54,570 bases of DNA from a virus (IMGVR_UViG_3300035150_000119:1-54570), one strand, 5' to 3'. Counted from the first letter of the stretch, positions 29,679-50,629 are shown. Notes: generated from the sequence alone by a model not told the origin. Made by a program: numbers and translations.

Positions 29679-32199
29679 ATCTCTCTCCAACAATTATTCT
29701 TGCCATATCATCAGAATAACCCTCATCAACTAATTTTTGTATTTCTTTATCTTCCTCATCTTGTTGCTCTTCGCCATCAAGCATTGAGTCTAATTCTTCA
29801 TTATCAGCTAGTAATTGATCTAATGTAGTTGATCCCATGTTAACTAATATTACATTTCCCATACCGTTAGGTAATTTCTCTTTTCCAACCATTTCCCTTT
29901 TTTCATCAATTGTCAGAAAATCTGCATTTTCAACTCTTTTCCACATCAATTCTTTTTTGTATTCTAGCGCAGGTATTTTACTCAAATCATAATCAATGAA
30001 TATCTCGTCGGTTTCAAAAATCCAATTGTTTATTTCACCTTTAAATAGATTTAAATAATATATTATCGTTTCTTCCCAAAAACCTGCACGGGCTTCTTTC
30101 ATGTTAGAATTATGAACAATAATTCCTTCTGCTATAAAATTATGATTATTTTCAACTTCAATATCATATACATCTGTTTCATCTAATTCTTCGATGCAGT
30201 TTATTGTTGAAAATTCCATATATTCAATATCTATTAAGTTTTTTATTTTATCAATTGAATTTTTTCCGCCTGTACTCAATAAATATTCTTTTTTTTGTTT
30301 TTTTAAATTTTTATTAATTTTTTCTATATAAGAAAAAGTATGACTTTTTATTTCATTAACATCTTTTGCGCTAGTAACTAAAAAAGTATAAGATGTTGCA
30401 TTTATTTTTTTGCCATTCGGCAATAATGAAATATATTCTTGTTTCCTTATATTGTTAACTTGTAATCCTAATTGTAAGCATAAATATCTTATATCTTTTA
30501 TCAATTCTAAATTACATAATACAAATTGACATCGTCCTTGATGATTAATGCTCCCATCAGAATCAATAATACCTCTTAAAAATGCTAATTTTTTATTTTT
30601 TGGCAATTTAAAAATCCAATCCGGAATTCTTTTTTCATGTGCTGTCCCATATAACCCTAATTCATTTATTCTTTTACAATAATTAGTAGAACCATAACTA
30701 ATTGCTCTATTTCGCCTTATCCCAGTAATTCCGATTATTTCATCTGCAATATTTTTATAATATTCTTCATATTCACAACCTTCTTGTATTGCTAAATAAA
30801 TTACTCCGCCTCTTTTATATCCTTTGTTATCTGATATATATACCGGATCACTTTTATATCCATCGCCTAAATAATAACCTAATAATTCCATTTCTTTCTC
30901 AGTTATATCTTTATCTTCTATATCATAAGGAATTTTTTTACACTGAGTTACAATATCACCAATTTTTAAATCTTTTACTTGTATATATTCTAAATAATAT
31001 TCTTTTTCTTTTGACATTCTATTATTAAACATTGGAGCATTGACAAGTCTTTCTTTTCTTATCAAAATTGGATGATTCTCAGTTGCTTCAATTGTTTTAT
31101 TTCTAGTTTTTATTTTATATATTTTTTTAGTTCCAACTTTCCCTTGCCATTTAATTTTATTCTTTATTAACTTGCCCTTTTTATTTAACGAATAAACATT
31201 ATCACCTTTGTTTAAATCACCAATATATTTATATCCATCAGGTGTTGAAATCCTAGTTTTATATGGCAAACAATACGTGTTATCTCCAGGAATTCCCAAT
31301 AACATTGGAGGCACGCCGTACCCATTACATATTTTTCTACTTAACTCTCTATTTGATTCAATCCAGTCCATTTCTTTCGGAGTCCAACTATATGGCTTCA
31401 TGTCGCCGGTTGATTCTCCCTCAATTACAATAGTTTTACCTGCATTTTTACTGCCTCGATATTTATCATTCAATTGCTTCTCGAGTCTATCCCATTGTGC
31501 ATCTGTTAGAAATCCATGCACAAATACAGCCATACCGGGTCTGCCTTCATTTTCAAACACTTTCTTTTGCCATTCTGTCGCTTCATTGCTACTATCAATC
31601 TCCCGGGAAATCGGTTCTGTAATACTCAACCCATAAAAATCATCTAACGGATGAAATGATTTTATTTGCAAGATATCTGATTTTTTGGTTATTGGGTCGA
31701 CAGGAAAATTTAATTTTTGATCATACACATATTCAGCGATTACACCGGTATCTTTATTTGTTTTAATCGTAATCTTATCAGGTCTTAGCGCATATAATTC
31801 TCGAATCTCGCCATTAGCAACTGTAACACGTTCAATATAGGCATTGCCGGTTATCAGAAAAAAACTAATCAATCGCTGCATTAAAAAGGTAAAGCTTGTA
31901 TCCGGATTTGCTCTTTTTAGGATATTCACAATTGGATGGTCGGTAATTTGTATTCGTTCAGTATCAGATTTCTTATAAAGGCCCCAATCAACGCTTGCCA
32001 AACTCGAAGCTATATAAAAAATACATCTAAAAGAGATAACATTCTTCATGTAGCTTTCTTTTGAAAAATTCATATAATCACGGTCAGGCCAGTGTGCTGT
32101 GCCATATTTTGAATCTATTACAAGAGTTTTACTCACCTTAGTTTGATGATTTTTTTTGGTTTCTTTTTTATTTTTACTAAACAATCCTAAAAATTTCAT
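29671..32199 (-). CDS. Portal protein interrupted by an intein
   Basis: 842 residues before splicing. The exteins form a HK97-type portal of 454 residues: residues 1-309 (FRCIFYIASSLASVDWGLYK, ITGNAYIERV, VPPMLLGIPGDNTY) and 698-842 (SNMKEARAGFWEETI..., acidic tail). The intein splits the conserved GIPGDNTY-SN motif. The portal is the DNA entry channel and terminase docking ring. The acidic C-terminal tail (DGEEQQDEED) is typical. Confidence 0.93.
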   Translation of the reverse strand: MKFLGLFSKNKKETKKNHQTKVSKTLVIDSKYGTAHWPDRDYMNFSKESYMKNVISFRCIFYIASSLASVDWGLYKKSDTERIQITDHPIVNILKRANPDTSFTFLMQRLISFFLITGNAYIERVTVANGEIRELYALRPDKITIKTNKDTGVIAEYVYDQKLNFPVDPITKKSDILQIKSFHPLDDFYGLSITEPISREIDSSNEATEWQKKVFENEGRPGMAVFVHGFLTDAQWDRLEKQLNDKYRGSKNAGKTIVIEGESTGDMKPYSWTPKEMDWIESNRELSRKICNGYGVPPMLLGIPGDNTYCLPYKTRISTPDGYKYIGDLNKGDNVYSLNKKGKLIKNKIKWQGKVGTKKIYKIKTRNKTIEATENHPILIRKERLVNAPMFNNRMSKEKEYYLEYIQVKDLKIGDIVTQCKKIPYDIEDKDITEKEMELLGYYLGDGYKSDPVYISDNKGYKRGGVIYLAIQEGCEYEEYYKNIADEIIGITGIRRNRAISYGSTNYCKRINELGLYGTAHEKRIPDWIFKLPKNKKLAFLRGIIDSDGSINHQGRCQFVLCNLELIKDIRYLCLQLGLQVNNIRKQEYISLLPNGKKINATSYTFLVTSAKDVNEIKSHTFSYIEKINKNLKKQKKEYLLSTGGKNSIDKIKNLIDIEYMEFSTINCIEELDETDVYDIEVENNHNFIAEGIIVHNSNMKEARAGFWEETIIYYLNLFKGEINNWIFETDEIFIDYDLSKIPALEYKKELMWKRVENADFLTIDEKREMVGKEKLPNGMGNVILVNMGSTTLDQLLADNEELDSMLDGEEQQDEEDKEIQKLVDEGYSDDMARIIVGERYE
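30109..31272 (-). mobile_element. Intein with LAGLIDADG homing endonuclease in the portal gene
   Basis: Portal residues 310-697 (388 aa). Begins with Cys310 (CLPYKTRISTPDGYKYIGDL), has the block B-like TIEATENHPIL, two LAGLIDADG-type motifs (LLGYYLGDGY and FLRGIIDSDGS), block F-like DVYDIEVENNHNFIAEGIIVHN and a C-extein Ser. All splice residues (Cys1, His-Asn, Ser+1) are intact, so splicing and homing look functional. Confidence 0.93.
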
Positions 32200-33725: not shown

Positions 33726-33968
33726 TTATCTCTCTTTTATATTTTTTTTACTTGCAATAATGCTATTGTTGTTTCTTACCATCTCAAAATTATAATTGTT
33801 AATACTTGTTAACACATATTCGTTGTAGTTTTGCATTACAATAGACAAATCATCAAGATTGTTATTTTTTAACGCCTCATTGATTGCTAACAAAAAATTA
33901 GATTCAATTTGTTTTTTTATAGAGTCTACTTCTAGTTTATATCTATCTTCTATCATTTCTTTTATCAT
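33726..33968 (-). CDS. Small helical hypothetical protein
   Basis: 80 residues, helical and Asn-rich (NNNLDDLSIVMQNYNEYVLTSINNYN). Starts four bases inside the terminase gene end (ATGA-like overlap). Function unknown. Confidence 0.65.
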   Translation of the reverse strand: MIKEMIEDRYKLEVDSIKKQIESNFLLAINEALKNNNLDDLSIVMQNYNEYVLTSINNYNFEMVRNNNSIIASKKNIKER

Positions 33969-35293
33969 AATACTCTTATCCTTGGGCTTTTAGGCGTCCA
34001 CAAGACATTGAAAGCCCCGCTACAACTATCAATTTGATCAAAAAATTTTCCATCAGGGAATAATTCTAATTCATTGAAGAAGTCTTCATTCCAATGTCCT
34101 TTTACAACTTTTACATTGCCTGCTTCTGCTTGACTTGAAAATGGTGTTGCTCTTTGAAACTTACTACCGGAAACCTTATCGGGATAAAATGCAAACTCAG
34201 GTAGTATATTTCTACGATAATGATCAATATTGTTTTTACCTGAGGATCCGGGTTCCTGCTCCATATAGATTATTACATTTCTGCCATCCATATCAGCTGT
34301 TTGTCTAATTATTTGTTCGGTATATCTAGGCTCTTTTCGGAATCTAATTATTGATTCTATATATATAATATTATTCTTGTCTACTACCAGCTTAGTACCG
34401 GATGTATAAGCCGGTTCTTTATTAGATTTGGTTGGCTCTGTTGCTGCTAAATCCCAGTATCTTACCCGTTTTGCTTCAATCGGAGCTTCATTTACAAGTT
34501 CAAACCATTCTCGCTTAAATATATTACCTAATTGCTTAATTTCCCAGTCGCCCTCTTCCAGTTGCTTTCTTGTAATAATATCTAACTGCTGCAAACTTAA
34601 TTTATATTCATTAATATTAAGATGCTGATTGTCTTCCATTTTTGCAGGAATAAAAATTACACCTTTTTGTCTTGTTTCAGGATCAACATATCTTTTTTTT
34701 ACCCATTGTCCACGTGCTATTTGTTCACCGGCTGGTGGATTGCTCGCACATCTGAATCGTATAGGGATTGTGCTATCTTTTAACTTCCTTAATCTCGAAA
34801 ACATATATTTTGCCTGATTCTCTCTAATGTTAACAGCTTCATCAATACCAACATACTGAAATTGAGAACTTTGAAAATTAAAATGCGAACGAGGATCGTC
34901 TAAATATCCAAATGAAAGTGTCGCGCCCGATGGAAAATTCCATCGATTCTTATCGCCAGACCAATGCGCATCTGTACCGCTAAGCCATTGATGTGAAACA
35001 TCCATAATACTGTCGGGCATTGATAGATTCTTCATAGTATCCCTTATTAAAATAGCATTGTATTTTTGTTCATGCACATATAATAATGATGCTGTCAATA
35101 ATGCAATGCTCTTACCACCACCGGCACTCCCGCCGTAAAAAGCATCTAAACAATCAAGCATTAAGAAAATCAACTGCTTATCGGTTGGATTAATCGGTAT
35201 ATATTTCCGATTGATCCTCAATAAGTTTCTCAGAATCAATAATCGTTTCGTTGTGTTTTGCAAGATTGATGATTTTTGCAATTCTGTTATCAT
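33965..35293 (-). CDS. terL: Terminase large subunit
   Basis: 442 residues. ATPase: Walker A GGSAGGGKS (54-62), Walker B YVGIDE (147-152) and a motif III-like CASNPP. RNase H-like nuclease: Asp281 in RYWDLAAT, YMEQEPGSSGK and FDQIDSCSGAF. It packages DNA into the head through the portal. The 5' end overlaps the small-subunit-like gene by 104 bases; a TTG or other start nearer RKYIPINPTDKQ is possible. Confidence 0.96.
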   Translation of the reverse strand: MITELQKSSILQNTTKRLLILRNLLRINRKYIPINPTDKQLIFLMLDCLDAFYGGSAGGGKSIALLTASLLYVHEQKYNAILIRDTMKNLSMPDSIMDVSHQWLSGTDAHWSGDKNRWNFPSGATLSFGYLDDPRSHFNFQSSQFQYVGIDEAVNIRENQAKYMFSRLRKLKDSTIPIRFRCASNPPAGEQIARGQWVKKRYVDPETRQKGVIFIPAKMEDNQHLNINEYKLSLQQLDIITRKQLEEGDWEIKQLGNIFKREWFELVNEAPIEAKRVRYWDLAATEPTKSNKEPAYTSGTKLVVDKNNIIYIESIIRFRKEPRYTEQIIRQTADMDGRNVIIYMEQEPGSSGKNNIDHYRRNILPEFAFYPDKVSGSKFQRATPFSSQAEAGNVKVVKGHWNEDFFNELELFPDGKFFDQIDSCSGAFNVLWTPKSPRIRVL

Positions 35294-36462: not shown

Positions 36463-39057
36463 TCATAGGTGAAATAAGCTATTTATATTTTTATTAATAA
36501 TTCCTAATATCTTTTTAGCTTCTAAACTATGTGGATAAATTTCAAGATACCTATCAATATGTTTTTTAGCATTTTTAAAATCTTTTATCCCAATTTCTAA
36601 TTCGGCTAACCTTATGCAAAAACTATCAAAATCATGAGTTTTATCAACAATTCTATTTAATATTTTAAGACCTCTATGTAAATCTTTTAATAACCAAACT
36701 TGACCTCGCTCAAATCTAAATCTTAAATTCTCAACATCAAGTCTACATAATTTATCATATGCAGTTATAGATTTTTTAATATTACCAAGATATTGGTATG
36801 TTGTTGCTAATCCCCATAAAGCAACAATTTTATCCGGTATTATTTTATTTGCTTTTTTAATATACTTTAAAGCTAATTTAAAATTCTTTTCTTTCCCATA
36901 TTTTTTGCTCAATTCTATATATTTATTAAACTCTATTTCATTAGTTTTATCTTCTCTTGATTGAGCAATTAAAATACATTTATGTCTCATATTTAAACAT
37001 TTTTCATAAATTTTTAGCACATAGGATTCATTATTTAAATTATTAGATATTAAATATTCAGATTCTAATAATGGTCTTGCCCAATTGCCATTATCAATAA
37101 GTGTTTCCCATACTTTAATATCAATTTTAGGATTAGAATTTTCGATTACAGAATTTTCAATATTATCTAATTTTTTTAAAACATCATTATAAATTTCTAA
37201 TAATTTTTTTGAACTTTTTTTAGCTTCTTCTAATATCAGTTTACTTCTTTCTACTCTTATTGCTAAATCTTTTTTGTCTTTTAATAAATGATTAGTTTTT
37301 CCATTAACTTTTAATTCTCGACTTTGTATTTTTCTACTTATTTTATAGATATGCAATGATAATAATATACTTTGTTTTGCGGTATTTTGTGCCTCAATTG
37401 CATATTTTTCATTTTCAGTTAATAATTTTTTTAATTCTGTTTTTTTATTTTTATTTAACATAGAAGTTATTGGCTTTAATGCTTTATTACAGAGATCAAT
37501 TTCTTTTTTAAATAAATCAATTTCCCAGTTTAATCTTTTTTTTGTCTCTTTAATATCTTTTTTATAATCAGGTTTTAAAGTAAGATATTTTTTTAATTTA
37601 TTTTTATTTATTTTTCTTTTACAATATTTTTTTAATGCTAGTTTTAAACTCATTTGTTCACAGTGTTTTTTCTTTGCACCACCTTCGCAGGAATTAATAA
37701 ATTTAATATCAGGATGACTTTTAAAAATATTTTCCATAGAAGTAACAAAACTAGCCAATCCCATATTAGTAGGTACTGGTTTCTCAAAATATCCGGGGAT
37801 CCAAATAGCATTACCTAATTTTTGTTGATTTTTTAAACTTGAAAGAGGATCGGTAATATTCCAATCCATACTACCATCTTTATTTATTTCTATTTTTCCA
37901 ATAGCATCGCCTAGTTTATTATGGCTTAACTTTTTGTCTGGGTCATAAGCGCAATCAAATCCAATATGAATTACAGGATTGCAGCCTAAATGAACAGCTA
38001 ATCCAATAGCCATATGACCGACACTCCCCCCTTGGTCTAATTGTCCTTTTTCATTTAGCATTTCAACTACCGTATTAGTATTTGCTGGATTAAATCCAGT
38101 TACTATAAATTTAGGCCCTTGCCATTTTTCTAAAATCGGGGCATAAGTTCGATTCAATGCAACAAAAGGTATATCTTTAATATGCCAAAGATTATCGAAA
38201 TGCTCATAATTTACCTTACCATAATCTACACTGCAAATAAAATCAGGTTTTATTCCAAATGCTAATAATGGTCTTAACATTTGTGCAATTGCTATTATAA
38301 TTATTCTTTCTCTTATTTTTTTATCTAATAATTGTGGTAATAATTCGGTTACTGTCGGTGCGCTGAGAATTACAATAGCCGGTTTACCTTTGAATAAATT
38401 TTTAATATCTTTTATACCTCTATGTTTAATTACATAAGGTAAATTTTTAATATCATTTTCAGCAATTATCTCACCTGCACCCATTATTGTACCAACATTA
38501 CAAATAATCTGATTAACTAAATCCATTGTTAATTTTGTAATTTCTGAATAAATATCTTGCAATATGACTGTATAATTATCTACAACAGTATGCCATAATT
38601 GGATAACTTTTGTTGCATCTATAAATGCTAAAATTGTATTTAATTCTTCTTTCCTTGAACATATTAATAATCTGCCATCTTTTATATATTTACTAAAATT
38701 ATAATTTTCAAAAGCATAATTTATTAATTGCTGTATAGGTTCTATTAATAATAGAACATGTTTTTTTTCTGATTTTTGTAGTAATTTATTCAATAAATAT
38801 CCATTTCCTATCCCAATTAAAATAGTACATTCATCATTATACAAATTAATATTCTGAAATGTTTCATTTGCTTGTTTATGTTCATTATTTTTAGGATATG
38901 CAAGAATTTCTTTAGAACCTAATTTAATTAAGAAATTTTTTCTATTTATTATTTTTATATTTTCGTGTTCTTTCTCTTTTTCATTTAATAATTTTTCTTC
39001 AAATAATTTATTAAATTCATGTATTGTTTTAATATTTGCCTCATAACAATTATTCAT
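36463..39057 (-). CDS. Maf/DUF115-type glycosyltransferase with C-terminal TPR repeats
   Basis: 864 residues. The DUF115 domain (about 210-430: GKPAIVILSAPTVTELLP, SVDYGKVNYEHFD, GSVGHMAIGLAVHLGCNPVIHIGFDCAY, FINSCEGGAKKKHCEQ) is that of motility-associated factors that attach nonulosonic sugars to flagellin. The last 150 residues are tetratricopeptide-like (YIELSKKYGKEKNFKLALKYIKKANK). Last gene of the nonulosonate operon, so it probably uses the operon's product. Acceptor on host or virion protein is unknown. Confidence 0.85.
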   Translation of the reverse strand: MNNCYEANIKTIHEFNKLFEEKLLNEKEKEHENIKIINRKNFLIKLGSKEILAYPKNNEHKQANETFQNINLYNDECTILIGIGNGYLLNKLLQKSEKKHVLLLIEPIQQLINYAFENYNFSKYIKDGRLLICSRKEELNTILAFIDATKVIQLWHTVVDNYTVILQDIYSEITKLTMDLVNQIICNVGTIMGAGEIIAENDIKNLPYVIKHRGIKDIKNLFKGKPAIVILSAPTVTELLPQLLDKKIRERIIIIAIAQMLRPLLAFGIKPDFICSVDYGKVNYEHFDNLWHIKDIPFVALNRTYAPILEKWQGPKFIVTGFNPANTNTVVEMLNEKGQLDQGGSVGHMAIGLAVHLGCNPVIHIGFDCAYDPDKKLSHNKLGDAIGKIEINKDGSMDWNITDPLSSLKNQQKLGNAIWIPGYFEKPVPTNMGLASFVTSMENIFKSHPDIKFINSCEGGAKKKHCEQMSLKLALKKYCKRKINKNKLKKYLTLKPDYKKDIKETKKRLNWEIDLFKKEIDLCNKALKPITSMLNKNKKTELKKLLTENEKYAIEAQNTAKQSILLSLHIYKISRKIQSRELKVNGKTNHLLKDKKDLAIRVERSKLILEEAKKSSKKLLEIYNDVLKKLDNIENSVIENSNPKIDIKVWETLIDNGNWARPLLESEYLISNNLNNESYVLKIYEKCLNMRHKCILIAQSREDKTNEIEFNKYIELSKKYGKEKNFKLALKYIKKANKIIPDKIVALWGLATTYQYLGNIKKSITAYDKLCRLDVENLRFRFERGQVWLLKDLHRGLKILNRIVDKTHDFDSFCIRLAELEIGIKDFKNAKKHIDRYLEIYPHSLEAKKILGIINKNINSLFHL

Positions 39058-39229
39058 TACATAGCTCCTTGCTTAATTCATTAATTTTTTTATCGTTATT
39101 AGTAATTTGTTTAAATATTTTTTTAGCTTCTTTTGGATTTTCTTTAAAAGCTAATTTTAATAAATTCATCCAGCAGATATTATTCTTTTTTCTTATTTCA
39201 AATATCTTATCTATATTTTTATTTGTCAT
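39050..39229 (-). CDS. Small helical protein of the nonulosonate operon
   Basis: 59 residues: EIRKKNNICWMNLLKLAFKE and KQITNNDKKINELSKEL. I recognise this pattern as a small protein that recurs in nonulosonate and Maf loci. Overlaps the GNAT gene at its start and the Maf gene at its end. May be an accessory subunit. Confidence 0.65.
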   Translation of the reverse strand: MTNKNIDKIFEIRKKNNICWMNLLKLAFKENPKEAKKIFKQITNNDKKINELSKELCNE

Positions 39230-39806
39230 TTTGTAATTTTCTAATATATTTATTTTTTAAAATAGCATAAGCAACCACATCTTCAAATTTACCATTTAAA
39301 AATTGTCCTTGTTTAAATGTACCTTCATGTTTCATGTTTAATTTATTAAATACTCTTATCATACCTTTATTCAAAATTGAAGTTCCTGACCAGATACGAT
39401 TTAATCCTAATCTCATAAAGCCATGATAAAATAATACTTGACATGCTTCTGTTGTAAACCCTTGTCCCCAGCAATCAGTCTCTCCAATTACAACCGCAAA
39501 CTCTGCAGACCGATTTATCCAATCAATTCGTTGTAAACTAATCATACCTATATGTTTAGCGCTTTTTTTTTCAATGATCATAAATGATAATAAAGATTTA
39601 TCATTATCGCATCGCTGGAAAAAATTATTTAATTCACTTTGAGATTGAGGAAATAGACCATGACTATTATATTGATTAACTTTTAGATCGCCAAACCATG
39701 ACAAATAAGCAGATTTATTAAAATCAATCAAACCTTGTAATTTTTCTTTTGATGTAGATACTAAATATAACCGGTTGGTTTCTAACCTTAAAGATAATAT
39801 ATCCAT
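39219..39806 (-). CDS. GNAT family N-acetyltransferase (PseH/LegH-like role)
   Basis: 195 residues. Acetyl-CoA binding region RSAEFAVVIGETDCWGQGFTTEAC (Q/R-x-x-G-x-G/A variant) and LNRIWSGTSILNKGMIRVFNKLNMKHEGTFKQG of the RimJ-like GNAT type. Likely acetylates an amino sugar in the pathway. Starts one base after the NeuB-like stop. Confidence 0.85.
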   Translation of the reverse strand: MDILSLRLETNRLYLVSTSKEKLQGLIDFNKSAYLSWFGDLKVNQYNSHGLFPQSQSELNNFFQRCDNDKSLLSFMIIEKKSAKHIGMISLQRIDWINRSAEFAVVIGETDCWGQGFTTEACQVLFYHGFMRLGLNRIWSGTSILNKGMIRVFNKLNMKHEGTFKQGQFLNGKFEDVVAYAILKNKYIRKLQNDK

Positions 39807-39807
39807 T

Positions 39808-40650
39808 TTACCCCCTTAATCCGGATTTAGGATCAGCTAATTGTTTTAATTGTTTTTCAGATATTATAAATTTACTATTTATAATATTTGATATTTTAAA
39901 TAATTTATTTCTTAAATTTGAAATTTCAGATGAAGTCCAACAATGTTTATATTTACTCTCACTACCTAATTTATCGTTAAGATCGAAATGCAATTCAATA
40001 ATTTGAGCATAAGAATTTACGGCTTCTAATATAACATCTATATCTCTTGTGTGATCTGAATAGCCCACAAAAATATTTTTATTTGATTTATCTTTTTTTA
40101 ATTGTGTTTTCTGGAAAATTAATGAATAAATAATAGCAAGTCTATTAATTGCAGCTTCTTCAATTAATGTCGGATATTTACTGACACAATGTAATAAATA
40201 ATATTTACATTCTTTTAACCCTTCATCTAAAATTAAATCAATTAAATTAAGAATATTATCATTCGATGCTAATCCACAACTGATATATATATCCTTTTTA
40301 GTTTGCATACTTTTTTTTATAAGATTTTTTCTTAAAATATCAAAACTGCTTATTTTAATAAAATCTACATAATTTTTTATTTCTTCAATTGCTTCTAAAT
40401 AAAATGGCGTGATCCCAAAAAACAACCCTAATCTTTTACATAATTTGGCTATTTCTGGAATCCAATCAATATTAAGTTCTTGCTTTTTATATTTATTTTG
40501 GCTATTTTTATTTCTAGTTATTTTTTCAGCTTTGAATAACTGAAATTTTACTGCTGAAAACCCCATTTCTTTGGCACTTGTAATTAAATCGCAGCATCTT
40601 TTCCAATCTTGATTATGATTCGAGCCTATTTCTGCAATTATTTGTAGCAT
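39808..40650 (-). CDS. neuB: NeuB-family nonulosonic acid synthase, without C-terminal SAF domain
   Basis: 280 residues. The barrel shows IIAEIGSNHNQDWKRC, SAVKFQLFKAEKI, FFGITPF, FIKISSFDI and YSDHTRDID with LHFDL, matching NeuB, which condenses phosphoenolpyruvate with a hexosamine. It ends about 60 residues before the antifreeze-like SAF domain found in many NeuB proteins, so substrate specificity or oligomerisation may differ. Directly upstream of the acetyltransferase. Confidence 0.88.
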   Translation of the reverse strand: MLQIIAEIGSNHNQDWKRCCDLITSAKEMGFSAVKFQLFKAEKITRNKNSQNKYKKQELNIDWIPEIAKLCKRLGLFFGITPFYLEAIEEIKNYVDFIKISSFDILRKNLIKKSMQTKKDIYISCGLASNDNILNLIDLILDEGLKECKYYLLHCVSKYPTLIEEAAINRLAIIYSLIFQKTQLKKDKSNKNIFVGYSDHTRDIDVILEAVNSYAQIIELHFDLNDKLGSESKYKHCWTSSEISNLRNKLFKISNIINSKFIISEKQLKQLADPKSGLRG

Positions 40651-40653
40651 TAT

Positions 40654-40824
40654 TTACCTCTTTTTATCAATTAATTTGTATAATTTTACTATTTCTGATA
40701 TTAAAAAATTCATTCCTAGTATAAAATATTCATGTTCGCTACAAGTTTGCATATTTTTCTCTATATATTCTATCATTTCATTTTTAATTTTCTTAATCAA
40801 CAATCCATCTTTATCCTCTATCAT
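40654..40824 (-). CDS. Small helical protein
   Basis: 56 residues, helical (IEDKDGLLIKKIKNEMIEYIEKNMQTCSEHEY). ATGA overlap with the aminotransferase gene end, three bases from the NeuB-like start, AAGGA upstream. Probably a genuine operon member. Function unknown. Confidence 0.6.
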   Translation of the reverse strand: MIEDKDGLLIKKIKNEMIEYIEKNMQTCSEHEYFILGMNFLISEIVKLYKLIDKKR

Positions 40825-42101
40825 TTTAATTCCTTACGGTTATCATAAACTTTATAAAAAGCATCTGCAATATCTTTAATGTCTAAATCAGATAATGGTA
40901 AAGCATGATAACTCATCATACAAAATTTATTATTTTGCAAATCTTCAACTACTGAAAAATTTAAATCCATATTAAATATAGGCATTTTATAGATAGGTTT
41001 TATATATCCATGCCAAATTAATGCATCAATTTTTGATGTTATTCCCATTTCAGTCCGACTTATAGTTAACTCAGACTTTACAGCATCAATAAATATATTT
41101 CTGCTAATACCAATTTTTTTTTCATCATATAAAAATGGTAACACATAATAACTATGTTCTGAGTTTGGTCGGCTATCACAAAATTTTATACCGTCGATTT
41201 TAATTGAATCTTTAATTTTTTTTACATTATTTTTTCTTAATTCTAATTCTTTATTTAAACATTTCAATTGCTCTATTAAAACAATAGCTTGCATTTCGGT
41301 CATTCTCATATTAAATCCATATTGATTTTCCATAAAATAATATTTAAGCTTACTAGGCATGCTATCAATAACGGCTTCCGCATGATTTCTAATCAATGCG
41401 CATTTCATATATAAATTATAATCTTTTGTTATAATAAATCCACCTTCACCGCAGGTACAATGTTTACCTTGCGTAAAACTAAAACATCCAATATCGCCAA
41501 AAGTCCCAGCTTGATTTCCGTTATATTTTGCGCCGAGTGCCTGAGCCGAATCTTCTATTACAAATAAATTATGTTTTTTTGCTATTTTGTTTATTTTTTC
41601 TACCTCGTATGGTTGGCCGAATAAATCTACAACAATTATGGCTTTTGTTTTTTTTGTGATTTTTTTCTCGATGCTTTTTGGATCAAGGCAAAAATAATTT
41701 TTTTCAACATCTGCGAATACCGGCGATGCAGAGTAAACCATCGGAGCTGTTGCAGAACATGTCATACTCCATGGGGTTACTATAACTTCATCATGAGAAT
41801 GTAATCCAATAGCACCGCATGAAATTTGCAAAGCTGAGGTACAACTATTTACAGCTAACACATAATATTTCTCTTTATTCTGAGAATTTTCATAAATCCA
41901 GTTTTCAAAATATTCTTCTAATTCTCTTATATATTTCCCTCCCCAAAAATGCTGGCCAGAACTACCTCTATATCCACTCAAAGTATTAGAAGAAACTAAA
42001 TTACATAATTTTTCTTTAATTATATCTTTATTATAAAGTTGTCTTTGAGGAAAAGGTGTTAACCGTATACTTTTACCACTATTAATTGATAATTTACTCA
42101 T
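40821..42101 (-). CDS. DegT/DnrJ/EryC1 sugar aminotransferase
   Basis: 426 residues. Fold type I PLP enzyme: substrate/cofactor region TSALQISCGAIG, VDLFGQPYE, VIEDSAQALGA and the PLP Lys213 in FSFTQGKHCTCGEGGF. These enzymes transfer an amino group to a keto sugar, giving the amino sugar that NeuB-type synthases use. The N-terminal region (TPFPQRQLY) is typical. Overlaps the downstream gene by ATGA. Confidence 0.93.
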   Translation of the reverse strand: MSKLSINSGKSIRLTPFPQRQLYNKDIIKEKLCNLVSSNTLSGYRGSSGQHFWGGKYIRELEEYFENWIYENSQNKEKYYVLAVNSCTSALQISCGAIGLHSHDEVIVTPWSMTCSATAPMVYSASPVFADVEKNYFCLDPKSIEKKITKKTKAIIVVDLFGQPYEVEKINKIAKKHNLFVIEDSAQALGAKYNGNQAGTFGDIGCFSFTQGKHCTCGEGGFIITKDYNLYMKCALIRNHAEAVIDSMPSKLKYYFMENQYGFNMRMTEMQAIVLIEQLKCLNKELELRKNNVKKIKDSIKIDGIKFCDSRPNSEHSYYVLPFLYDEKKIGISRNIFIDAVKSELTISRTEMGITSKIDALIWHGYIKPIYKMPIFNMDLNFSVVEDLQNNKFCMMSYHALPLSDLDIKDIADAFYKVYDNRKELK

Positions 42102-42774
42102 ATAAAATTCCTTTTATATATTCAATTTCTTTTTCAAGCTGTTTAATATTATCGCAAATACTTTCTAATATAATTGGGGTTTTTTGTGTTTTCATTATAT
42201 ATGCAATATATAATAATTCATCAATTTTATTTTTTTGTGTATTACAAAAAAATTTATGACAATTATTATCAATAGTATTACTAAGATGAATTTGTTTTAT
42301 ATAATTTTTATTTTTTTCATAAAATGTAAATAGTTCATTTTGAGCCATTGCGTGGCTTACATCAAAACAAATATTATCAATATTCTCAAAACTATATTTT
42401 TTATAATCTACATTTTCATATAATATTGGAATATCTGCATTTTGAAATATTTTTGGAATATTATTAATTAAATCTATATGTGCAATAAATGAATCTATAT
42501 TTAATTTATTCCTTTTCAAAAATGATAAAGTTAGAAAATAAGAATTATATTGATTAGGAAGATGTAAGCTTTTATATTTTAAACTATTTATCCATTTTAC
42601 ATTTTCTTTTGACAAGGTAAAAGTTTTTAATTCTTCTTTTGCCAAAAGAATTTCAATAGCATTTATTTTATTCCCAAATTTTTCTTTATATAAACTTATA
42701 ATATTATTTCTATCTTCAATAAATTTATATGCACAACCTAAACTTAACCCAAAAATATAATTATTATTTATCAT
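42094..42774 (-). CDS. TIM-barrel sugar isomerase/epimerase-like protein
   Basis: 226 residues. Xylose-isomerase-like barrel motifs: IEILLAKEEL, LHLPNQ, FIAHIDLI, ILYENVDY, FDVSHAM, IHLSN and ILES, with the His, Glu and Asp expected for metal binding. Short relative to typical members (about 280). Probably an epimerase or isomerase on a sugar intermediate. Function inferred from fold and operon. Confidence 0.75.
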   Translation of the reverse strand: MINNNYIFGLSLGCAYKFIEDRNNIISLYKEKFGNKINAIEILLAKEELKTFTLSKENVKWINSLKYKSLHLPNQYNSYFLTLSFLKRNKLNIDSFIAHIDLINNIPKIFQNADIPILYENVDYKKYSFENIDNICFDVSHAMAQNELFTFYEKNKNYIKQIHLSNTIDNNCHKFFCNTQKNKIDELLYIAYIMKTQKTPIILESICDNIKQLEKEIEYIKGILYE

Positions 42775-43557
42775 TTAATATTCCAACAATAATTTTGTAG
42801 ATTTTAAATTCTTATTAATTTCTAACAATTCTGGATTTCCTATAAGATAATTAATTATTTGCCAATATTTAATATATTTAAATTTATCAGAACCAAAATA
42901 GTCAATTATTTTTTTTATCAATTCTAAATCTTCCGGATAATCGATGCATAATCGCCATTCAGGATGAAAATGTTTTTTATCTGCTTCAAAATTAATTATT
43001 TTTAATTCTTCTCGATTAAATTTTTCTCTATAATGCCAAATATTCCAACCTGTCCAGTTAGGATTATAATCAATTCCTAAAATTTTCTCATATATTTCTC
43101 TTGTATATACTTGGATATCATAACCATCAGGAAAAGTTCGAGTAATACAATTTGCTGAATAACCTGCACCATAATCTATTAATCTATCAATTAACAAATC
43201 TGCTAATGAAGGATCAAAAAATGTACAACAATGACTTATATCTACAATAATATCAATATTAAATTGTTTTGCCGCATTTAAACATCTTAAAAAAATATCA
43301 TCATTATCACCAAATGAAACATTTATTTTAATTTCATTTTGTTTATAATTTTTTAAAAATTCAATTATGCTTTCAAATTCACCTTTTTTATTTGATATTG
43401 CTAATATTATTTCGTCAATATACAAAGAGGTTGAAGCTCTTTCTATTATCCATTCAAGCTGACATTTATCATGAATTTTCGATAATACTTTATTTGGGAA
43501 TCGATTACTGCTTAATCTTGTCGGAATGATTAACCCTACTTTATTATCTTTATACAT
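42775..43557 (-). CDS. SpsF/CMP-sugar cytidylyltransferase-like protein B
   Basis: 260 residues. N-terminal nucleotide-binding motif LIIPTRLSSNRFPNKVLSKI, central DISHCCTFFDP and HFHPEWRLCIDYPEDLELI near the C-terminus. Belongs to the acylneuraminate cytidylyltransferase/SpsF superfamily that activates sugars with CTP. Paralogue of the gene immediately downstream in coordinate (43557-44348), sharing WRLCIDYPEDLELI. Confidence 0.85.
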   Translation of the reverse strand: MYKDNKVGLIIPTRLSSNRFPNKVLSKIHDKCQLEWIIERASTSLYIDEIILAISNKKGEFESIIEFLKNYKQNEIKINVSFGDNDDIFLRCLNAAKQFNIDIIVDISHCCTFFDPSLADLLIDRLIDYGAGYSANCITRTFPDGYDIQVYTREIYEKILGIDYNPNWTGWNIWHYREKFNREELKIINFEADKKHFHPEWRLCIDYPEDLELIKKIIDYFGSDKFKYIKYWQIINYLIGNPELLEINKNLKSTKLLLEY

Positions 43558-44348
43558 TATTTTGCTCCTGCTATTTTTTGTTTACAATTTTTATTAATTT
43601 CTAATAATTTCGGATTCATTATTAAATAATTAATAATTTTATCATAAGAAATATTTTGAATATTATTTTTTCCAAAATGATCAATTATTTTTTCAATAAG
43701 TTCTAAATCTTCCGGGTAATCAATACATAATCGCCATTCAGGATGAAAATATATACTAGATGCAAGTATGTTGCCAAATTTACATTTTTTCTCCATCCCA
43801 AAAATACTTTGTATATCTGCAGAATATGCCCATATATTCCAACCTGAATGCTGTCTATGATTAGGATTAATAACTATTTCATTTGCTAAATCCAATAATT
43901 TAGAATTATATATTTGAATATCAAATCCTCGTGGATAACTTCTTACCATACAATTTGATAAATAATCATATTTTTCGTATATAAATCTTTCGAGCATTTC
44001 ATCAATCATAAACGGATCAATTAATGGACAATCAGCTGTAATATCTATAATAGAAATACTTTTTTTAGTTAGCCTAGTTATTTCTTTTGATACATTATAT
44101 ACTGTATCTATGGATTCATTTGGATTACCAATATTAAAACAAATAATATTATTTGTTATACAAAAGTCTAAAATTTCTACATCTGCTTCATCTGTTGTAC
44201 AGCCAACAACAATTTTATCTATTTTTTCACTAAGTTTTAATCTTTTAATCAAAAGGTCTAATAAATTTAAATCATCATAAATATTTTTCAAAACTTTACC
44301 CGGCAATCTAGTACTATTCATTCTTGCCTGAACTATCGCAACGTTCAT
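43557..44348 (-). CDS. SpsF/CMP-sugar cytidylyltransferase-like protein A
   Basis: 263 residues. Canonical VAIVQARMNSTRLPGKVLKNI motif at the N-terminus and DITADCPLIDP at about 105, with FHPEWRLCIDYPEDLELIEK at the end. The closer match of the two to functional SpsF or CMP-synthetases. One-base overlap with gene B; the pair could form a heteromer or act on two different sugars. Confidence 0.88.
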   Translation of the reverse strand: MNVAIVQARMNSTRLPGKVLKNIYDDLNLLDLLIKRLKLSEKIDKIVVGCTTDEADVEILDFCITNNIICFNIGNPNESIDTVYNVSKEITRLTKKSISIIDITADCPLIDPFMIDEMLERFIYEKYDYLSNCMVRSYPRGFDIQIYNSKLLDLANEIVINPNHRQHSGWNIWAYSADIQSIFGMEKKCKFGNILASSIYFHPEWRLCIDYPEDLELIEKIIDHFGKNNIQNISYDKIINYLIMNPKLLEINKNCKQKIAGAK

Positions 44349-44356
44349 ATTTAATC

Positions 44357-45358
44357 CTAATTTAATATTTTTTGATATACTTTTTGGACATCAAGAGCAT
44401 TTGTATCAGTACAAATTAAATTATATTGGTTTTTATTTTTAGACTTGAAATATTCAAGGGTATTTCTGTACATAGAAATAAGAGACAATTCAATTTCATT
44501 ATTAATAATTTTTGTTGCCTTGTAATTCATACTCGAAAAATCACCATAAACTTTTTCAGATTTTTTAAAATAAATTTTAGTTTTTTTACCATGATCTATT
44601 AAATTTATTCTTGCATTTTCAGTCAAAATATCCATTTCAAAAATACTATAATCTAAACCATTCGCAGGTGTCAAAAATATATTTTTGCATTTATCGTATT
44701 CCATCCAGACCGGGACCGTAAAATCTTTTTCATCAAAATCATTATATATATTATTTCGATTTCCTAAAATTTTACCTTGTTTAAATTCTCCAAAAAAATA
44801 ATTACATAAATCAATAGCATGGCATGCGTCTCGCTGAAATCCACGAACATAAATAATATTGCATGCTCTAATTTTACCATACTTTTGGGTTTCAAGTTTT
44901 GATTTTATTTCTAAAATTGATGGACAAAACCTTCTTGTATAATTAATGACAATAGGGATATTCGCTTTTTGATATTGTTTGCTAATTTTTACAGCTTCAT
45001 CATAATTATTACAAAAAGGCTTTTCTGCAATAATTAGTTTTGGATTTAATTTTAAAACTTCTAACATTATATTTGAATGATAATTAGTGTTTACTGCAAT
45101 TGTAAAAATATCTATATCAATATGATTGTTTTTTAATCCTTTTAAATTAAAAAAACCTTTACATTCCCATTTTTTACATGCTTTTACCAATTTTTCTATA
45201 TTATTATCAATAATATAAAATTCATTTATTAGTTTTTTCTTTCTTAAAAAATATAAAGAATGTGCATGGGTTAGAATATTTTTAGAATGGGGACTATCAT
45301 ATTTATCTGGTTTTAATGCTCCGATACTACCTGCACCAATTATACAGACATTTAACAT
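44357..45358 (-). CDS. Gfo/Idh/MocA family oxidoreductase
   Basis: 333 residues. NAD-binding Rossmann start NVCIIGAGSIGALK, IAVNTNYHSNIMLEVLKLNPKLIIAEKPFCNN (EKP motif) and VINYTRRFCPSILEIK. Oxidises a sugar hydroxyl, making the keto substrate for the aminotransferase. First enzyme gene after the ribbon-helix-helix gene. No classical PseB/LegB dehydratase is present, so this enzyme may replace it or process a host sugar. Confidence 0.9.
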   Translation of the reverse strand: MLNVCIIGAGSIGALKPDKYDSPHSKNILTHAHSLYFLRKKKLINEFYIIDNNIEKLVKACKKWECKGFFNLKGLKNNHIDIDIFTIAVNTNYHSNIMLEVLKLNPKLIIAEKPFCNNYDEAVKISKQYQKANIPIVINYTRRFCPSILEIKSKLETQKYGKIRACNIIYVRGFQRDACHAIDLCNYFFGEFKQGKILGNRNNIYNDFDEKDFTVPVWMEYDKCKNIFLTPANGLDYSIFEMDILTENARINLIDHGKKTKIYFKKSEKVYGDFSSMNYKATKIINNEIELSLISMYRNTLEYFKSKNKNQYNLICTDTNALDVQKVYQKILN

Positions 45359-46244: not shown

Positions 46245-46269
46245 GGGTAAGGGCTATTTGCCCCTACCC
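46245..46269 (-). terminator. Terminator-like hairpin after the type IV cassette
   Basis: GGGTAAGGGC - TATTT - GCCCCTACCC, ten base pairs with one mismatch, GC-rich against the AT-rich background. It lies about 25 bases past the CysH-like stop and overlaps the end of a tiny open frame. The following T-run on the coding strand is weak. Confidence 0.6.
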
Positions 46270-46298
46270 CCTTTTCCTGTTCCAGATTCACAATTCAT
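46254..46298 (-). CDS. Possible 14-residue peptide
   Basis: ATG at 46298 overlaps the CysH-like stop (ATGA) and has AGGAGG seven bases upstream. Encodes MNCESGTGKGGRGK. Its 3' end lies in the hairpin at 46245-46269. The strong ribosome-binding site is notable but the peptide may only be a leader or a chance frame. Confidence 0.3.
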   Translation of the reverse strand: MNCESGTGKGGRGK

Positions 46299-47062
46299 AA
46301 CAACCTCCTAATTTCTGGAAATTCATTCAAAATTTTATTATACTCATTAGGATATAACAATTTATTTACATGAATTCTACCATATTGATAACAATTTATG
46401 TCTGCTAAATTATTAACCCTAACTTTCTTGAAATCTAATTCATATTTTCTTGATCGAGCATAAACGGGATGAATAGGAATATTTTCTGAATATGCATACG
46501 AAAAAATGTCAATAACAGTCCATTTTGCAATAGGCTGTAAAATATCAGACAGCTCTCTTTTATTATAATAGCTCTCACCTCTAATGTAAAAATTTATTCT
46601 TCTCATTTTACTTTCTTCTTTTCTCAAACCCAATATAGTACCATTTATTTCATATTTATCCATTATTTTCCATCGTGGCTTTTCTAAAACATTGTATGCA
46701 AAATTAACTCCTGTATGTTTCTTTTGGATATTTTCTTTTAAATCTTTTTTAAAAAATTCTTTATAATTATCAACAAATGTTTCTTCATAATTGTTGATAA
46801 TATATTTTTCTAATACATAATTACGCAATCTTAATGTTTCTTCAGCTTCAAAGCCTGCATTATTCCACATAACTAATTTTAATTTATTTAATAAATCATA
46901 TTTTGATAAAATATGTAATATCGTCATAGAGTCTTTCCCAAAAGATAACGCTAACAGAGTATTATGATTTTTGATAAAATTATTACATAGTTCTACAGTT
47001 TTATTTTCTAACCATTTTTTATGAAATCGTAGCTTTAATGGATAATTATGAAATTCCTTCAT
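46295..47062 (-). CDS. CysH-like PP-loop ATPase/PAPS reductase-like protein of the type IV-B cassette
   Basis: 255 residues from the ATG at 47062 (ATGA overlap with csf3). PP-loop SFGKDS (40-45), then WNNAGFEAEETL and GLRKEESKMRR, as in PAPS reductase/CysH and 3'-phosphoadenosine-binding enzymes. CysH-like genes are a known companion of type IV-B CRISPR-Cas systems with unknown function. It lacks the C-terminal ECGLH cysteine of true assimilatory CysH, so sulfate reduction is unlikely. Confidence 0.85.
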   Translation of the reverse strand: MKEFHNYPLKLRFHKKWLENKTVELCNNFIKNHNTLLALSFGKDSMTILHILSKYDLLNKLKLVMWNNAGFEAEETLRLRNYVLEKYIINNYEETFVDNYKEFFKKDLKENIQKKHTGVNFAYNVLEKPRWKIMDKYEINGTILGLRKEESKMRRINFYIRGESYYNKRELSDILQPIAKWTVIDIFSYAYSENIPIHPVYARSRKYELDFKKVRVNNLADINCYQYGRIHVNKLLYPNEYNKILNEFPEIRRLL

Positions 47063-47796
47063 AAACAACACTCATATTCTTTACAATTTTTTCCAAAATA
47101 AGGCGATCTTATCGGGTTATATATAATATCATCATTTTTTATAGGTAATTTCTTTTGTCTTAAGTATACTAATGGCATCGGTCTTATATAATGTTTAGTT
47201 ACATTATCATATAATTCCAACTTATTTATTTCTTTAATTTTCATTTCACATTTTCCAAATCCTTGAGCCGTCCTTTTGCCTATATTTACACCCATATTCA
47301 ACAACATCTCTAAGATTTCAATATCACCAATACCTTTTATTATATATTTTTTTTTGGTTGAATACAAGACCGGTTTTTTATAATTTTTAAAAACTCCTCC
47401 ATTTAAACGAACTCTTTTATCTTTTACAATAGGAATTATCGGCTCCTCAGTTTTTTTTATCATAAAACAAATTTTATCAGGAATATCAAAAAACCCTCCA
47501 CAAAGATAAAAATATTCACGATACCCATTTTCAAAATGAAAATATTTTTTTTGGATAGGGACCTCAATATATAATCTTTCATCAAAATCTAATGACAAAT
47601 TAAAATACTGATCTTTTAAAACATGCCAAAAACAATAATGAGACATCACCGCATCAAAGAATAAAAAAGAATTTCCCACACGACCAATTTTAAAATTGAC
47701 CTCTATCTCAAATGGTTTATAATATTCTAATCTTTGCTTAAGATTATAATTCCAATTGTTAGCAAGTTCTTTTATTTTTTCTGATAATTTTCTCAT
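47059..47796 (-). CDS. csf3: Csf3-like Cas5 family protein (type IV)
   Basis: 245 residues. Cas5/RAMP features: FEIEVNFKIGRVG with FDAVMSHY at about 30-53, GGV-x-KNYKKP, KGIGDIEILEMLLNMG (154-169) and IGKRTAQGFGKCE (172-184), then YIRPMPL (203-209). Csf3 caps the crRNA 5' handle in type IV complexes. A Cys-rich end (CKEYECCL) is unusual. Gene order csf1-csf2-csf3 supports the call. Confidence 0.82.
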   Translation of the reverse strand: MRKLSEKIKELANNWNYNLKQRLEYYKPFEIEVNFKIGRVGNSFLFFDAVMSHYCFWHVLKDQYFNLSLDFDERLYIEVPIQKKYFHFENGYREYFYLCGGFFDIPDKICFMIKKTEEPIIPIVKDKRVRLNGGVFKNYKKPVLYSTKKKYIIKGIGDIEILEMLLNMGVNIGKRTAQGFGKCEMKIKEINKLELYDNVTKHYIRPMPLVYLRQKKLPIKNDDIIYNPIRSPYFGKNCKEYECCL

Positions 47797-47797
47797 A

Positions 47798-48982
47798 TTA
47801 CATACTCATAACATAATTTTTAATTTTTTCTTTATTTTCTTCAAGATATTTTTCAGCCAATTCAGGATTAATTTCATAATTATTTAACAATCTATATTCA
47901 ACTCTCCCAAATCCAGCTCGTCCCATCCCCCCTATCTTACCGTCTTTTTGAAGTTGAACTAATGCAAGATCAAAAAAAGATTTTTCTAATTCAGAAAGAT
48001 AAAAAGTATTTATCGACCATGCAAAACTGGATCCGGTTTCAACGCAAATAGCTGAATATTTCATTTGAATTGCAGATGATTTCTTTTTTTCGGTTTCTTC
48101 ACTAACAATACCTTCAAAATCATCACGACGAGTCATGAAATATTCCTTCAAAAAACTCATGCCATCTCGTTTGATTTCTGGATTTGTTTCCATACAATCT
48201 AATAATGCGAAATTCCAATTCATCTTACCCGGTAAATCTTCTTTGCCTAACATTGCACCAAAAATTGATAAGAAAGGCAGTTGCTCTCTTAATTTAATTT
48301 TTTCTTCAATATTCAAAAATCCGTCGGCAGTAGTTAACATCCCACCATTGAAAAAAGTATAATAAATTTCAGCTCTCAATTCTCTTTGATAATCATTACC
48401 AAAAATTTTTGAAAAAACATAATTCATTAAACATCTTCTTGTATGCCCTCTTAATGAATTACCCGGTATTACCGGGATTGTTATATCAATCTCAACCTCA
48501 CAAAGATCATCGTTAATCTCAAATTCATTTTTGAATAATGAAGAATCTTCACAATAGACCGCAGATGTAACAAAAATATCTATATTTTCTCTTGCCCATT
48601 GGATCAAACTCATATTTTCTTCTCTATTCAAAGTTAATGCAAATTTTGTAACATATTGATAACAATCAGATGATGACAATTCAACCTTATCTTTTAGATT
48701 CGTAAAAAAACTCGATATAGTATTTGTCATCAAAGAAACAAAAACACGATCACGAAAAATATCGGCATAACTACGATAACCGTAACTTTCATGTCGAGTA
48801 TTTCTGTATACACTTCCAACAATTTTAATAAATTCTTTTAATTTTTCTTTATCTACTTTAACAACTTTTTTTTCTTCCTGTGGTAAATGTAAAAGATAAG
48901 GCATACTAATTGTAGATACAGAATCGCTACCAACATGGATAGGACTCAAAGCATTAATTTTAAATTCAATCGTTTGGATCAT
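47798..48982 (-). CDS. csf2: Csf2-like Cas7 backbone protein (type IV)
   Basis: 394 residues. RAMP motifs: SPIHVGS (13-19), IPGNSLRGHTRR (172-183), GAMLGKEDLPGKM (242-254), a MKYSAICVETGSSFAWSI strand and the glycine-rich loop GGMGRAGFGRV (351-361). Cas7/Csf2 proteins polymerise along guide RNA. It overlaps csf1 by 17 bases and ends one base before csf3. Large for Csf2 (usually about 330-350), with an extended N-terminal half. Confidence 0.88.
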   Translation of the reverse strand: MIQTIEFKINALSPIHVGSDSVSTISMPYLLHLPQEEKKVVKVDKEKLKEFIKIVGSVYRNTRHESYGYRSYADIFRDRVFVSLMTNTISSFFTNLKDKVELSSSDCYQYVTKFALTLNREENMSLIQWARENIDIFVTSAVYCEDSSLFKNEFEINDDLCEVEIDITIPVIPGNSLRGHTRRCLMNYVFSKIFGNDYQRELRAEIYYTFFNGGMLTTADGFLNIEEKIKLREQLPFLSIFGAMLGKEDLPGKMNWNFALLDCMETNPEIKRDGMSFLKEYFMTRRDDFEGIVSEETEKKKSSAIQMKYSAICVETGSSFAWSINTFYLSELEKSFFDLALVQLQKDGKIGGMGRAGFGRVEYRLLNNYEINPELAEKYLEENKEKIKNYVMSM

Positions 48983-49643
48983 CTTTTTTCTCCTTCATTA
49001 AACAATCAATAATCAATTCATAACATTGATTGTTTTTATATTTTTTTATTTTAACAATATCATTAAAACTTAATTGATATTTGCTAATCTTTTTTGGATT
49101 TATTACACAAGATTTTAATTCATCTTTGGATATACCTAATTGAAATAGATTATTAACTATTTTATATATGTCTTTATATTTGTTTCTTTCAAATAAAATA
49201 TTATTTTCTTCTGTGCATACCCAAAATTTATTTTCATAATGAGATAATCTTGCTTTATAAAAAATATGTTTTTGTCCAGTTTTAGAAAAACATAATAAAA
49301 AAGGTGTTTGATATTCATAATTAAATAGATAATCTATTTTTTCTTTCATATCTATCGTTTTAAATTTTTTATTTTCAATAATAAAACTATACAATCTTAA
49401 TCCACATCGTTTCCCTTTCGGAGAATCTAAATAATTATCATTTAATAACTTTTGACAATAATCACAAATCAAATTAGAATTACGATATTTCATGTCAACA
49501 TAACCATTGAATGATTTAGATAATATTTTTTCTCGGGTTTCAAAATTATTAGCTTTTTCAATACCGCACATGCAACATTGTCCCTCAATATTATCTTTAT
49601 AATTTTTTTGTTCAATTGCTTCAACAATAATTTTTGAAATCAT
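48966..49643 (-). CDS. csf1: Csf1-like large-subunit protein (type IV)
   Basis: 225 residues. Zinc finger C23-x2-C26 and C60-x2-C63, then the Csf1 signature TPFLLCFSKTGQKHIFYKARL and LFQLGISKDEL near residue 170. Csf1 is the small Cas8-like large subunit of type IV complexes and has been tied to target recognition. First Cas gene in the operon. Confidence 0.85.
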   Translation of the reverse strand: MISKIIVEAIEQKNYKDNIEGQCCMCGIEKANNFETREKILSKSFNGYVDMKYRNSNLICDYCQKLLNDNYLDSPKGKRCGLRLYSFIIENKKFKTIDMKEKIDYLFNYEYQTPFLLCFSKTGQKHIFYKARLSHYENKFWVCTEENNILFERNKYKDIYKIVNNLFQLGISKDELKSCVINPKKISKYQLSFNDIVKIKKYKNNQCYELIIDCLMKEKKDDPND

Positions 49644-49646
49644 TTT

Positions 49647-50378
49647 TTATTCCACCTTTAAATTGTTAAATTCATTATATATTTTCATTATTTTGTCCGG
49701 ATAATATTCCTTTTCTTTTCGAATATATACTGCCTGTTTGATCGATTTAATGTCATCCCTATCAATCACGTGTTTTATTATCATTTCAGAATTACAATTA
49801 TAAGCCAGTAATAATCTTTCGTTTAGATTTTTATGGGTTTGTTTTTCAAGCTTTCTTTTATTCTGCTGCATCATCCGAAACCACATTCGAGTTACAAGTA
49901 ATAAATCATCGCATCCTTCATGATTATCATAACCGGTCAAACCCTTCCATGTCTGTCTCATGAATTGCAAGAATGATTTTTCTCCATGCCCCCCTATTGC
50001 TTCATTATTGAATTCACTCTCGCCGAATCCCATCGCAAGAAAAAGTATAGGACTCATTCCTGTTTCCTCAGATAATTCAAATGCTAACGAACTAATCTTA
50101 ATTTGATCTTCCTCTTCGAACTTCGCTTCTTTTATCTTGAAAATATATAATGCTTTTTTTATATAATTTTCTTTTCGTTCCTGATAAGACAAAACAAGAT
50201 CGGATTTCCGGTATTGGTCAAAATTATAATATGACTTCATAAATGATTCATTTTGCTCAATATTTAATCTTAATAAAAATATTATAAAAACAATTAATAT
50301 GGCAATAATTAAAGTCATTACAATCATTATGCAAAGATAGACTATCTTATGATGCCCTTGAGGATATTGTTTTTTCAT
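49647..50378 (-). CDS. Membrane-anchored lytic transglycosylase (SLT-like)
   Basis: 243 residues. One membrane helix (about 11-37), then an SLT-fold domain: catalytic Glu120 in MGFGESEFNNEAIGG, HGEKSFLQFMRQTWKGLTGYD and a C-terminal Tyr in LLAYNCN. Cleaves peptidoglycan glycan strands; could aid DNA entry, lysis or conjugation-like transport. Ends three bases before the csf1 start codon, so co-transcribed. Confidence 0.85.
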   Translation of the reverse strand: MKKQYPQGHHKIVYLCIMIVMTLIIAILIVFIIFLLRLNIEQNESFMKSYYNFDQYRKSDLVLSYQERKENYIKKALYIFKIKEAKFEEEDQIKISSLAFELSEETGMSPILFLAMGFGESEFNNEAIGGHGEKSFLQFMRQTWKGLTGYDNHEGCDDLLLVTRMWFRMMQQNKRKLEKQTHKNLNERLLLAYNCNSEMIIKHVIDRDDIKSIKQAVYIRKEKEYYPDKIMKIYNEFNNLKVE

Positions 50379-50629
50379 AATTTGCCTCCTTCTAATATAT
50401 TTTCAAACAATTCTATTGCCTCACATAATAACTCAGAAATAAAATCATTTGTATGTATCTTTGATGCCTGCTTACACCAAGCATTTATTCTTTTTCTTAA
50501 CATACTGTCTTTTATTTTTGATATAGAATTTTTCATACACCAATCAGACAACTCTTCAATTTTGATATCTTTTTCTTTTATGATTTGTTCAAAATCTTTC
50601 TTTAATTTATTCATTTTCTTATATTTCAT
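50375..50629 (-). CDS. Small helical protein
   Basis: 84 residues, all-helical prediction (IKEKDIKIEELSDWCMKNSISKIKDSM...), with two Cys. Overlaps the lytic transglycosylase gene by four bases (ATGA). A Cas11-like small subunit is not excluded by size and helicity but no specific motif supports it. Confidence 0.6.
   Translation of the reverse strand: MKYKKMNKLKKDFEQIIKEKDIKIEELSDWCMKNSISKIKDSMLRKRINAWCKQASKIHTNDFISELLCEAIELFENILEGGKL

Follow-up and report, generated by a model that had tools for sequence, protein, structure and literature searches.

The Cas11 component of the type IV-B-like effector cassette in this metagenomic tailed-phage DNA is not missing. As judged from profile matches and a predicted fold, it is built into the backbone subunit Csf2 as a nested domain. 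The window, which is the whole stretch of 54,570 nucleotides analysed, encodes this cassette together with a CysH-like partner. The same four genes with the same fusion recur in other viral contigs, and they are under purifying selection.

The csf1, csf2, csf3 and cysH ORFs are all present on the minus strand and form one operon. The csf1 gene (48966-49643, minus strand) encodes a Cas8-like large subunit of 225 residues with two CxxC pairs, which matches the PADLOC typeIV_Cas8 model at 2e-26. The csf2 gene (47798-48982, minus strand) encodes a Cas7 backbone subunit of 394 residues, in which the Cas11 domain is nested (typeIV_Cas7, 4e-39), and csf3 (47059-47796, minus strand) encodes a Cas5-like protein of 245 residues (typeIV_Cas5, 2.4e-14). 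The last gene (46295-47071, minus strand) encodes a CysH-like PP-loop protein of 258 residues, CasCysH (PAPS reductase family PF01507, 3.4e-16). All four matches are well beyond chance level. The csf1 and csf2 genes overlap by 17 bp, csf2 and csf3 are separated by 1 bp, and csf3 and cysH overlap by 13 bp when cysH starts at GTG, or by 4 bp when it starts at the ATG three codons later. The sequence-only reading, which had proposed four adjacent leftward Csf1-, Csf2-, Csf3- and CysH-like genes, is thus confirmed, and in the HMM comparison the four proteins fall in these families and not in unrelated ones. It had placed the cassette at 46254-49643; the end at 49643 is correct, but the start is not, because the cysH stop lies at 46295, 41 bases inside that limit. 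The matches to the NCBIfam models cas8u_csf1 (3.8e-11), csf2 (1.5e-11) and csf3 (8e-8) are all under the strict cut-offs of NCBI, so that the Csf proteins of the window are divergent members of their families. When compared with PDB sequences, Csf1 gives no match and Csf3 gives just weak rows at chance level. The best match of Csf2 in a single-sequence search of the PDB is 11fs, named 'Cas7c', for which a literature search gave no paper.

The PADLOC Cas11 family matches the whole record at one site only, 48560-48850 within csf2 (5.4e-6; model positions 6-102 of 114), and residues 45-140 of Csf2 match type IV Cas11 models in the PADLOC scan. The domain itself covers residues ~45-143 (48554-48850, minus strand) and contains six predicted helices. 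An HMM made from 79 stand-alone Cas11 proteins, from which all fused ORFs were excluded, finds the insertion in every fused Csf2, at 4e-15 in L042, 1e-11 in L024, 2e-11 in L058, 1.1e-5 in the window, 4e-5 in L009 and 3e-3 in L008, while the top unrelated ORF among 9,745 scores 0.12. When the six insertions are aligned with stand-alone Cas11 by hhalign, the probability is 98.7%. In the fused Csf2 proteins, the GNS motif lies 170-212 residues from the N-terminus, as compared with 38-63 residues in 80 non-fused ones. The earlier statement that a cas11 gene was not recognised is overturned by these PADLOC and HMM matches. The 84-residue ORF at 50375-50629, which had been put forward as a Cas11 candidate, is ruled out, since it has no PADLOC Cas11 match and none at E<=10 with the Cas11 HMM.

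The insertion sits in a Csf2 loop that runs from strand 1 to the helix with PGNSLRG, directly after the sequence GSD, and the Asp residue at the insertion point is conserved in all six fused proteins. The Csf2 protein of the solved type IV-B complex (7jhy) has a putative catalytic Asp42 and an unstructured loop at this site, near the path of the target strand (PMC7937560). According to the alignment, the insertion occupies the loop that matches the 'catalytic loop' of 7jhy Csf2 and Csm3. In Csm3, the corresponding loop is the target-cutting loop.

The AlphaFold2 model of the window Csf2 (mean pLDDT 86.7) has a Cas7 fold that is broken by six helices at residues 45-143. The whole model is similar to the type IV-B Csf2 chain 7jhy_a with a VIA Z score of 17.9 over 222 residues, and slightly more similar to type IV-A Csf2 chains, with a Z score of ~20. 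The insertion was folded alone, because the Cas7 part fills the Foldseek and VIA lists of the whole model. When only the six fused sequences are used as input, the insertion is predicted with a mean pLDDT of 86.8, and its best match by VIA among 331 chains, by a wide margin, is 7jhy_g (Z score 8.7, 3.1 A over 103 residues). This chain belongs to the type IV-B complex and, with 143 residues, is Cas11-like in size. The runners-up are type I-D Cas10d (Z score 4.4) and a small chain of the type I-B CAST Cascade (Z score 4.0). When the 111-residue insertion is searched by Foldseek, 7jhy_g ranks seventh, with an E value of 4.3. This weak value makes the structural evidence for Cas11 moderate, though it agrees with the evidence from sequence, and the case rests on VIA together with the sequence profiles. 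If the helices were instead an unrelated elaboration of Csf2, like the thumb or finger extension of type IV-A Csf2, the phage would have no Cas11. The higher Z score of the whole model to type IV-A Csf2 and the weak Foldseek value would fit this possibility. However, it is very improbable, because Cas11 profiles and hhalign match the insertion, the insertion-alone fold is closest to 7jhy_g with other CRISPR effector complexes next, and a separate cas11 gene is absent exactly in the fused loci, none of which carries a second cas11.

In several type I systems, Cas11 is made from an internal start in cas8. An in-frame ATG at codon 27 of csf2, which lies ahead of the insertion, might likewise allow Cas11 to be made additionally alone. 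However, no stop codon follows the insertion, so that such a product would carry the entire Cas7 remainder, and this possibility is extremely improbable.

The assignment of the cassette to type IV-B-like systems is supported by its gene content. In the record, a linear sequence from which parts of the genome may be missing, there are no CRISPR array-like repeats and no Helicase_C_2 (DinG), Cas6 or Cas1 family anywhere, in agreement with the sequence-only reading that DinG, Cas6 and an array are absent. Thus, neither the marks of type IV-A (DinG helicase, Cas6 and array) nor adaptation genes are found in it, as in type IV-B. An Rfam scan of the window gives no RNA match. The large subunit is a Csf1 protein of 225 residues and not a Cas10-like protein, 7jhy Csf2 is matched by the A2 profile at 4e-65, as is expected for type IV csf2, and csf3, a Cas11 component and a CysH-like gene without the catalytic cysteine are all present. 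However, cas11 is not a gene of its own. With Cas11 encoded solely as a domain within csf2, the system is not a typical member of type IV-B.

This difference is evident when known systems are compared. The type IV-B operon of Mycobacterium sp. JS623 (7jhy) has the same Csf1, Csf2, Csf3 and Cas11 gene set and also has no array (PMC7937560), but its Cas11 is a separate protein and its complex contains six Csf2 and five Cas11 subunits, whereas Cas11 of the window phage lies within Csf2. In the solved complex, Cas11 is located on the Csf2-Csf2 interfaces and the bound RNA is heterogeneous (PMC7937560); Csf1 and Csf3 have no clear density (PMC8175902, PMC7937560). The type IV-B operon of the Thermococcus nautili plasmid THER333_p (L004) has the same gene order, csf1-(cas11)-csf2-csf3-cysH, except that cas11 is a separate gene encoding 136 residues. 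Type IV systems have been reported from prophages and lytic phages (PMC10848311, PMC11656645). Fuxivirus, a tailed virus of Bathyarchaeia, likewise carries adjacent csf1, csf2, csf3 and cysH-like genes; it differs in that its locus has five genes (Fuxivirus_1 to 5), a Cas11 tree is given and a mini CRISPR array is present, and a Cas7-Cas11 fusion is not described (PMC10848311). A virus-borne type IV-B system with CysH is thus already known, and a Cas11 nested in a type IV Csf2 was not found in the open-access literature searched. Cas7 and Cas11 are also covalently fused in Cas7-11 of types III-E and III-I, in which several Cas7 domains and one Cas11 form one effector (PMC12669027). In contrast, the window Csf2 has one Cas7 domain with one Cas11 nested in its fold, and Csf1 and Csf3 are kept separate.

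The CysH-like protein of the window retains the SxGKDS and GLRxEESxxR motifs and lacks the ECGxH cysteine motif. ECG[LIVM]H is found in none of the 73 CysH homologues compared, while SxGKDS and GxRxxESxxR are kept. The catalytic cysteine that characterises a PAPS reductase (CysH) is thus present neither in the window protein nor in these homologues. The best solved relative of a profile of 20 cassette CysH proteins is the sulfate adenylyltransferase CysD (1zun_A, 6.5e-26). Absence of the motif and likeness to CysD agree with the published proposal that the CysH-like protein of type IV-B is an ATP alpha-hydrolase (PMC8175902). Several type IV-B loci (L010, L013, L029, L039 and L079) have a second, longer CysH-like gene (360-446 residues) in addition to the short one; the longer gene in the Natrinema locus L002 is annotated DUF3440.

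The distribution of the cassette was analysed with 67 viral and 30 genomic loci encoding type IV Csf2, plus plasmid operons, and csf1, cas11, csf2, csf3 and cysH were annotated in each locus. An alignment was needed as the query, because a scan of IMG/VR with the single Csf2 sequence gave no confirmed match; a tblastn search of Csf2 against named phages also gave none. The 67 viral loci, found in the IMG/VR scan, qualify the statement that most type IV-B systems are on plasmids. In 51 of them, csf1, csf2, csf3 and a cysH-like gene occur together. The cas11 gene is separate in 53 viral loci and lies in csf2 in six (L008, L009, L024, L042, its near-copy L043, and L058), so that five distinct viral contigs besides the window share the nested fusion; additional scans gave no further contigs with a fused Csf2. 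Cas11 and csf1 signals lie in one ORF in four of the other viral loci, two have no cas11 signal, and two are cut by the contig edge. Csf1 ORFs of ~340 residues with a C-terminal Cas11 match (5e-7 to 2e-3) are located at L065:8841-9869, L067:8853-9869 and L069:8829-9875, and csf1 is likewise long in L055 and L127. This is apparently a different fusion, of Csf1 and Cas11, in a second group of viral loci.

The fused Csf2 of L008 is 66% identical to that of the window, and that of L009 is 46% identical. When the window is compared with the available flanks of the five other fused loci, detectable protein similarity is confined to the four cassette genes, with the exception of a shadow ORF opposite csf2. 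The flanks contain tape-measure genes in L024 and L042, and endolysin and GroEL genes in L058. The gene order is csf3-cysH-csf1-csf2 in L008 and csf1-csf2-cysH-csf3 in L024 and L042. Because the fused loci have only the four cassette genes in common with the window, the cassette moves as a module, and the changes in gene order show that the four-gene set is kept together. Decay in close relatives would have spoken against a working cassette; between the window and L008, however, dN/dS is ~0.24-0.46, a value that is approximate since dS is >1, and amino-acid identity is 66% in the insertion and likewise in the Cas7 part. This result indicates that the cassette is intact and under selection. In a quick tree of the Cas7 part, the fused proteins split into a group of window, L008 and L009 and a group of L024, L042 and L058, but the likelihood is higher for a tree in which they form one group (AU p 0.65). 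A single origin of the fusion is therefore not rejected, yet not proven.

The window encodes T4-type baseplate, tape-measure, major head, portal and terminase proteins, which makes the term myovirus reasonable. The earlier description of a type IV-B-like cassette with CysH in a myovirus thus agrees with the profiles, structure, operon layout and structural genes. Stretches of the structural region have nearly identical counterparts (96-99.9% at the nucleotide level) in two other IMG/VR records. The terminase (33965-35293, minus strand) is closest among named phages to that of the methanogen phages psiM2/psiM100 (43.5%), and the major capsid protein to that of Azospirillum phage Cd (41%). From the terminase, the phage may have an archaeal host, but the two proteins do not agree on it. 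The portal protein (29671-32199, minus strand, 842 residues) is interrupted at residues 323-697 by an intein (PF14890, 3.7e-16) that includes a LAGLIDADG-like domain. A gene set for surface sugars (36463-45358, minus strand), which consists of an MptE/Maf-like protein with TPR repeats, a GNAT acetyltransferase, NeuB, an aminotransferase, two cytidylyltransferases and an oxidoreductase, hints at nonulosonate modification. Seven copies of a 138-nt tandem repeat (9420-10385, minus strand) lie within the tail-fibre gene (9378-11453).

The explanation that best joins these results, to which we give roughly an even chance, is a mobile phage cassette of type IV-B-like character, in which Csf2-Cas11 forms an RNA filament, the CysH-like protein is the enzyme, and the whole is used against rivals or the host. 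Cas11 would be grafted into the Csf2 loop that faces the groove of the target strand. The Csf2-Cas11 hybrids would polymerise along RNA into a Csm-like filament, in which each hybrid brings its own belly subunit at a fixed 1:1 ratio of Cas7 to Cas11, and Csf3 and Csf1 would cap opposite ends. The RNA would be taken in trans, because neither an array nor a processing enzyme was found. As suggested by its motifs, the CysH-like protein may work with the filament on the bound substrate by ATP alpha-hydrolysis or adenylyl transfer, and not as a PAPS reductase. Most likely, the complex would serve the phage in conflict with rival elements or with RNA-guided defence of the host, and not in adaptive immunity.

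Two narrower functions have to be weighed. The complex may be a sponge that coats crRNAs or small RNAs of the host or rivals for counter-defence, without target recognition or a guide of its own. Such a role is a tentative possibility, because the Mycobacterium type IV-B complex binds heterogeneous RNA (PMC7937560), array and Cas6 were not found in the record, the cassette is located in a phage, and the insertion takes the place of the loop facing the target strand; however, it leaves the strictly kept CysH-like gene, a point made previously (PMC8175902), and the retained Csf1 unexplained. Alternatively, the complex may silence or defend against plasmids and other phages with guides from host arrays, while CysH modifies the bound target. 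Type IV-A represses plasmids (PMC11656645) and the PP-loop enzyme with its adenylation-type motifs is conserved, but this function has neither a guide source nor a known modification chemistry and is rather unlikely. To return to the anti-host or anti-rival filament, its more specific form is a phage branch of type IV-B in which two filaments are merged into one polypeptide, with a Cas11 on every Cas7 at the site of the target-cutting loop of Csm3, to give a compact three-subunit RNP, a PP-loop adenylation enzyme modifies the bound material, and a second viral group has Csf1-Cas11; in this form it is held to be doubtful.

Because the four genes recur together, in changed order, in dissimilar viral contigs, Csf1, Csf2-11, Csf3 and CysH are argued to be a sufficient functional unit. 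For work on the function of type IV-B systems, the phage version offers a well-delimited set of four genes that can be expressed and deleted. A built-in Cas11 would fix the stoichiometry and register of the subunits, which should aid structural work, and the fusion indicates that merging of Cas7 and Cas11 took place outside type III too.
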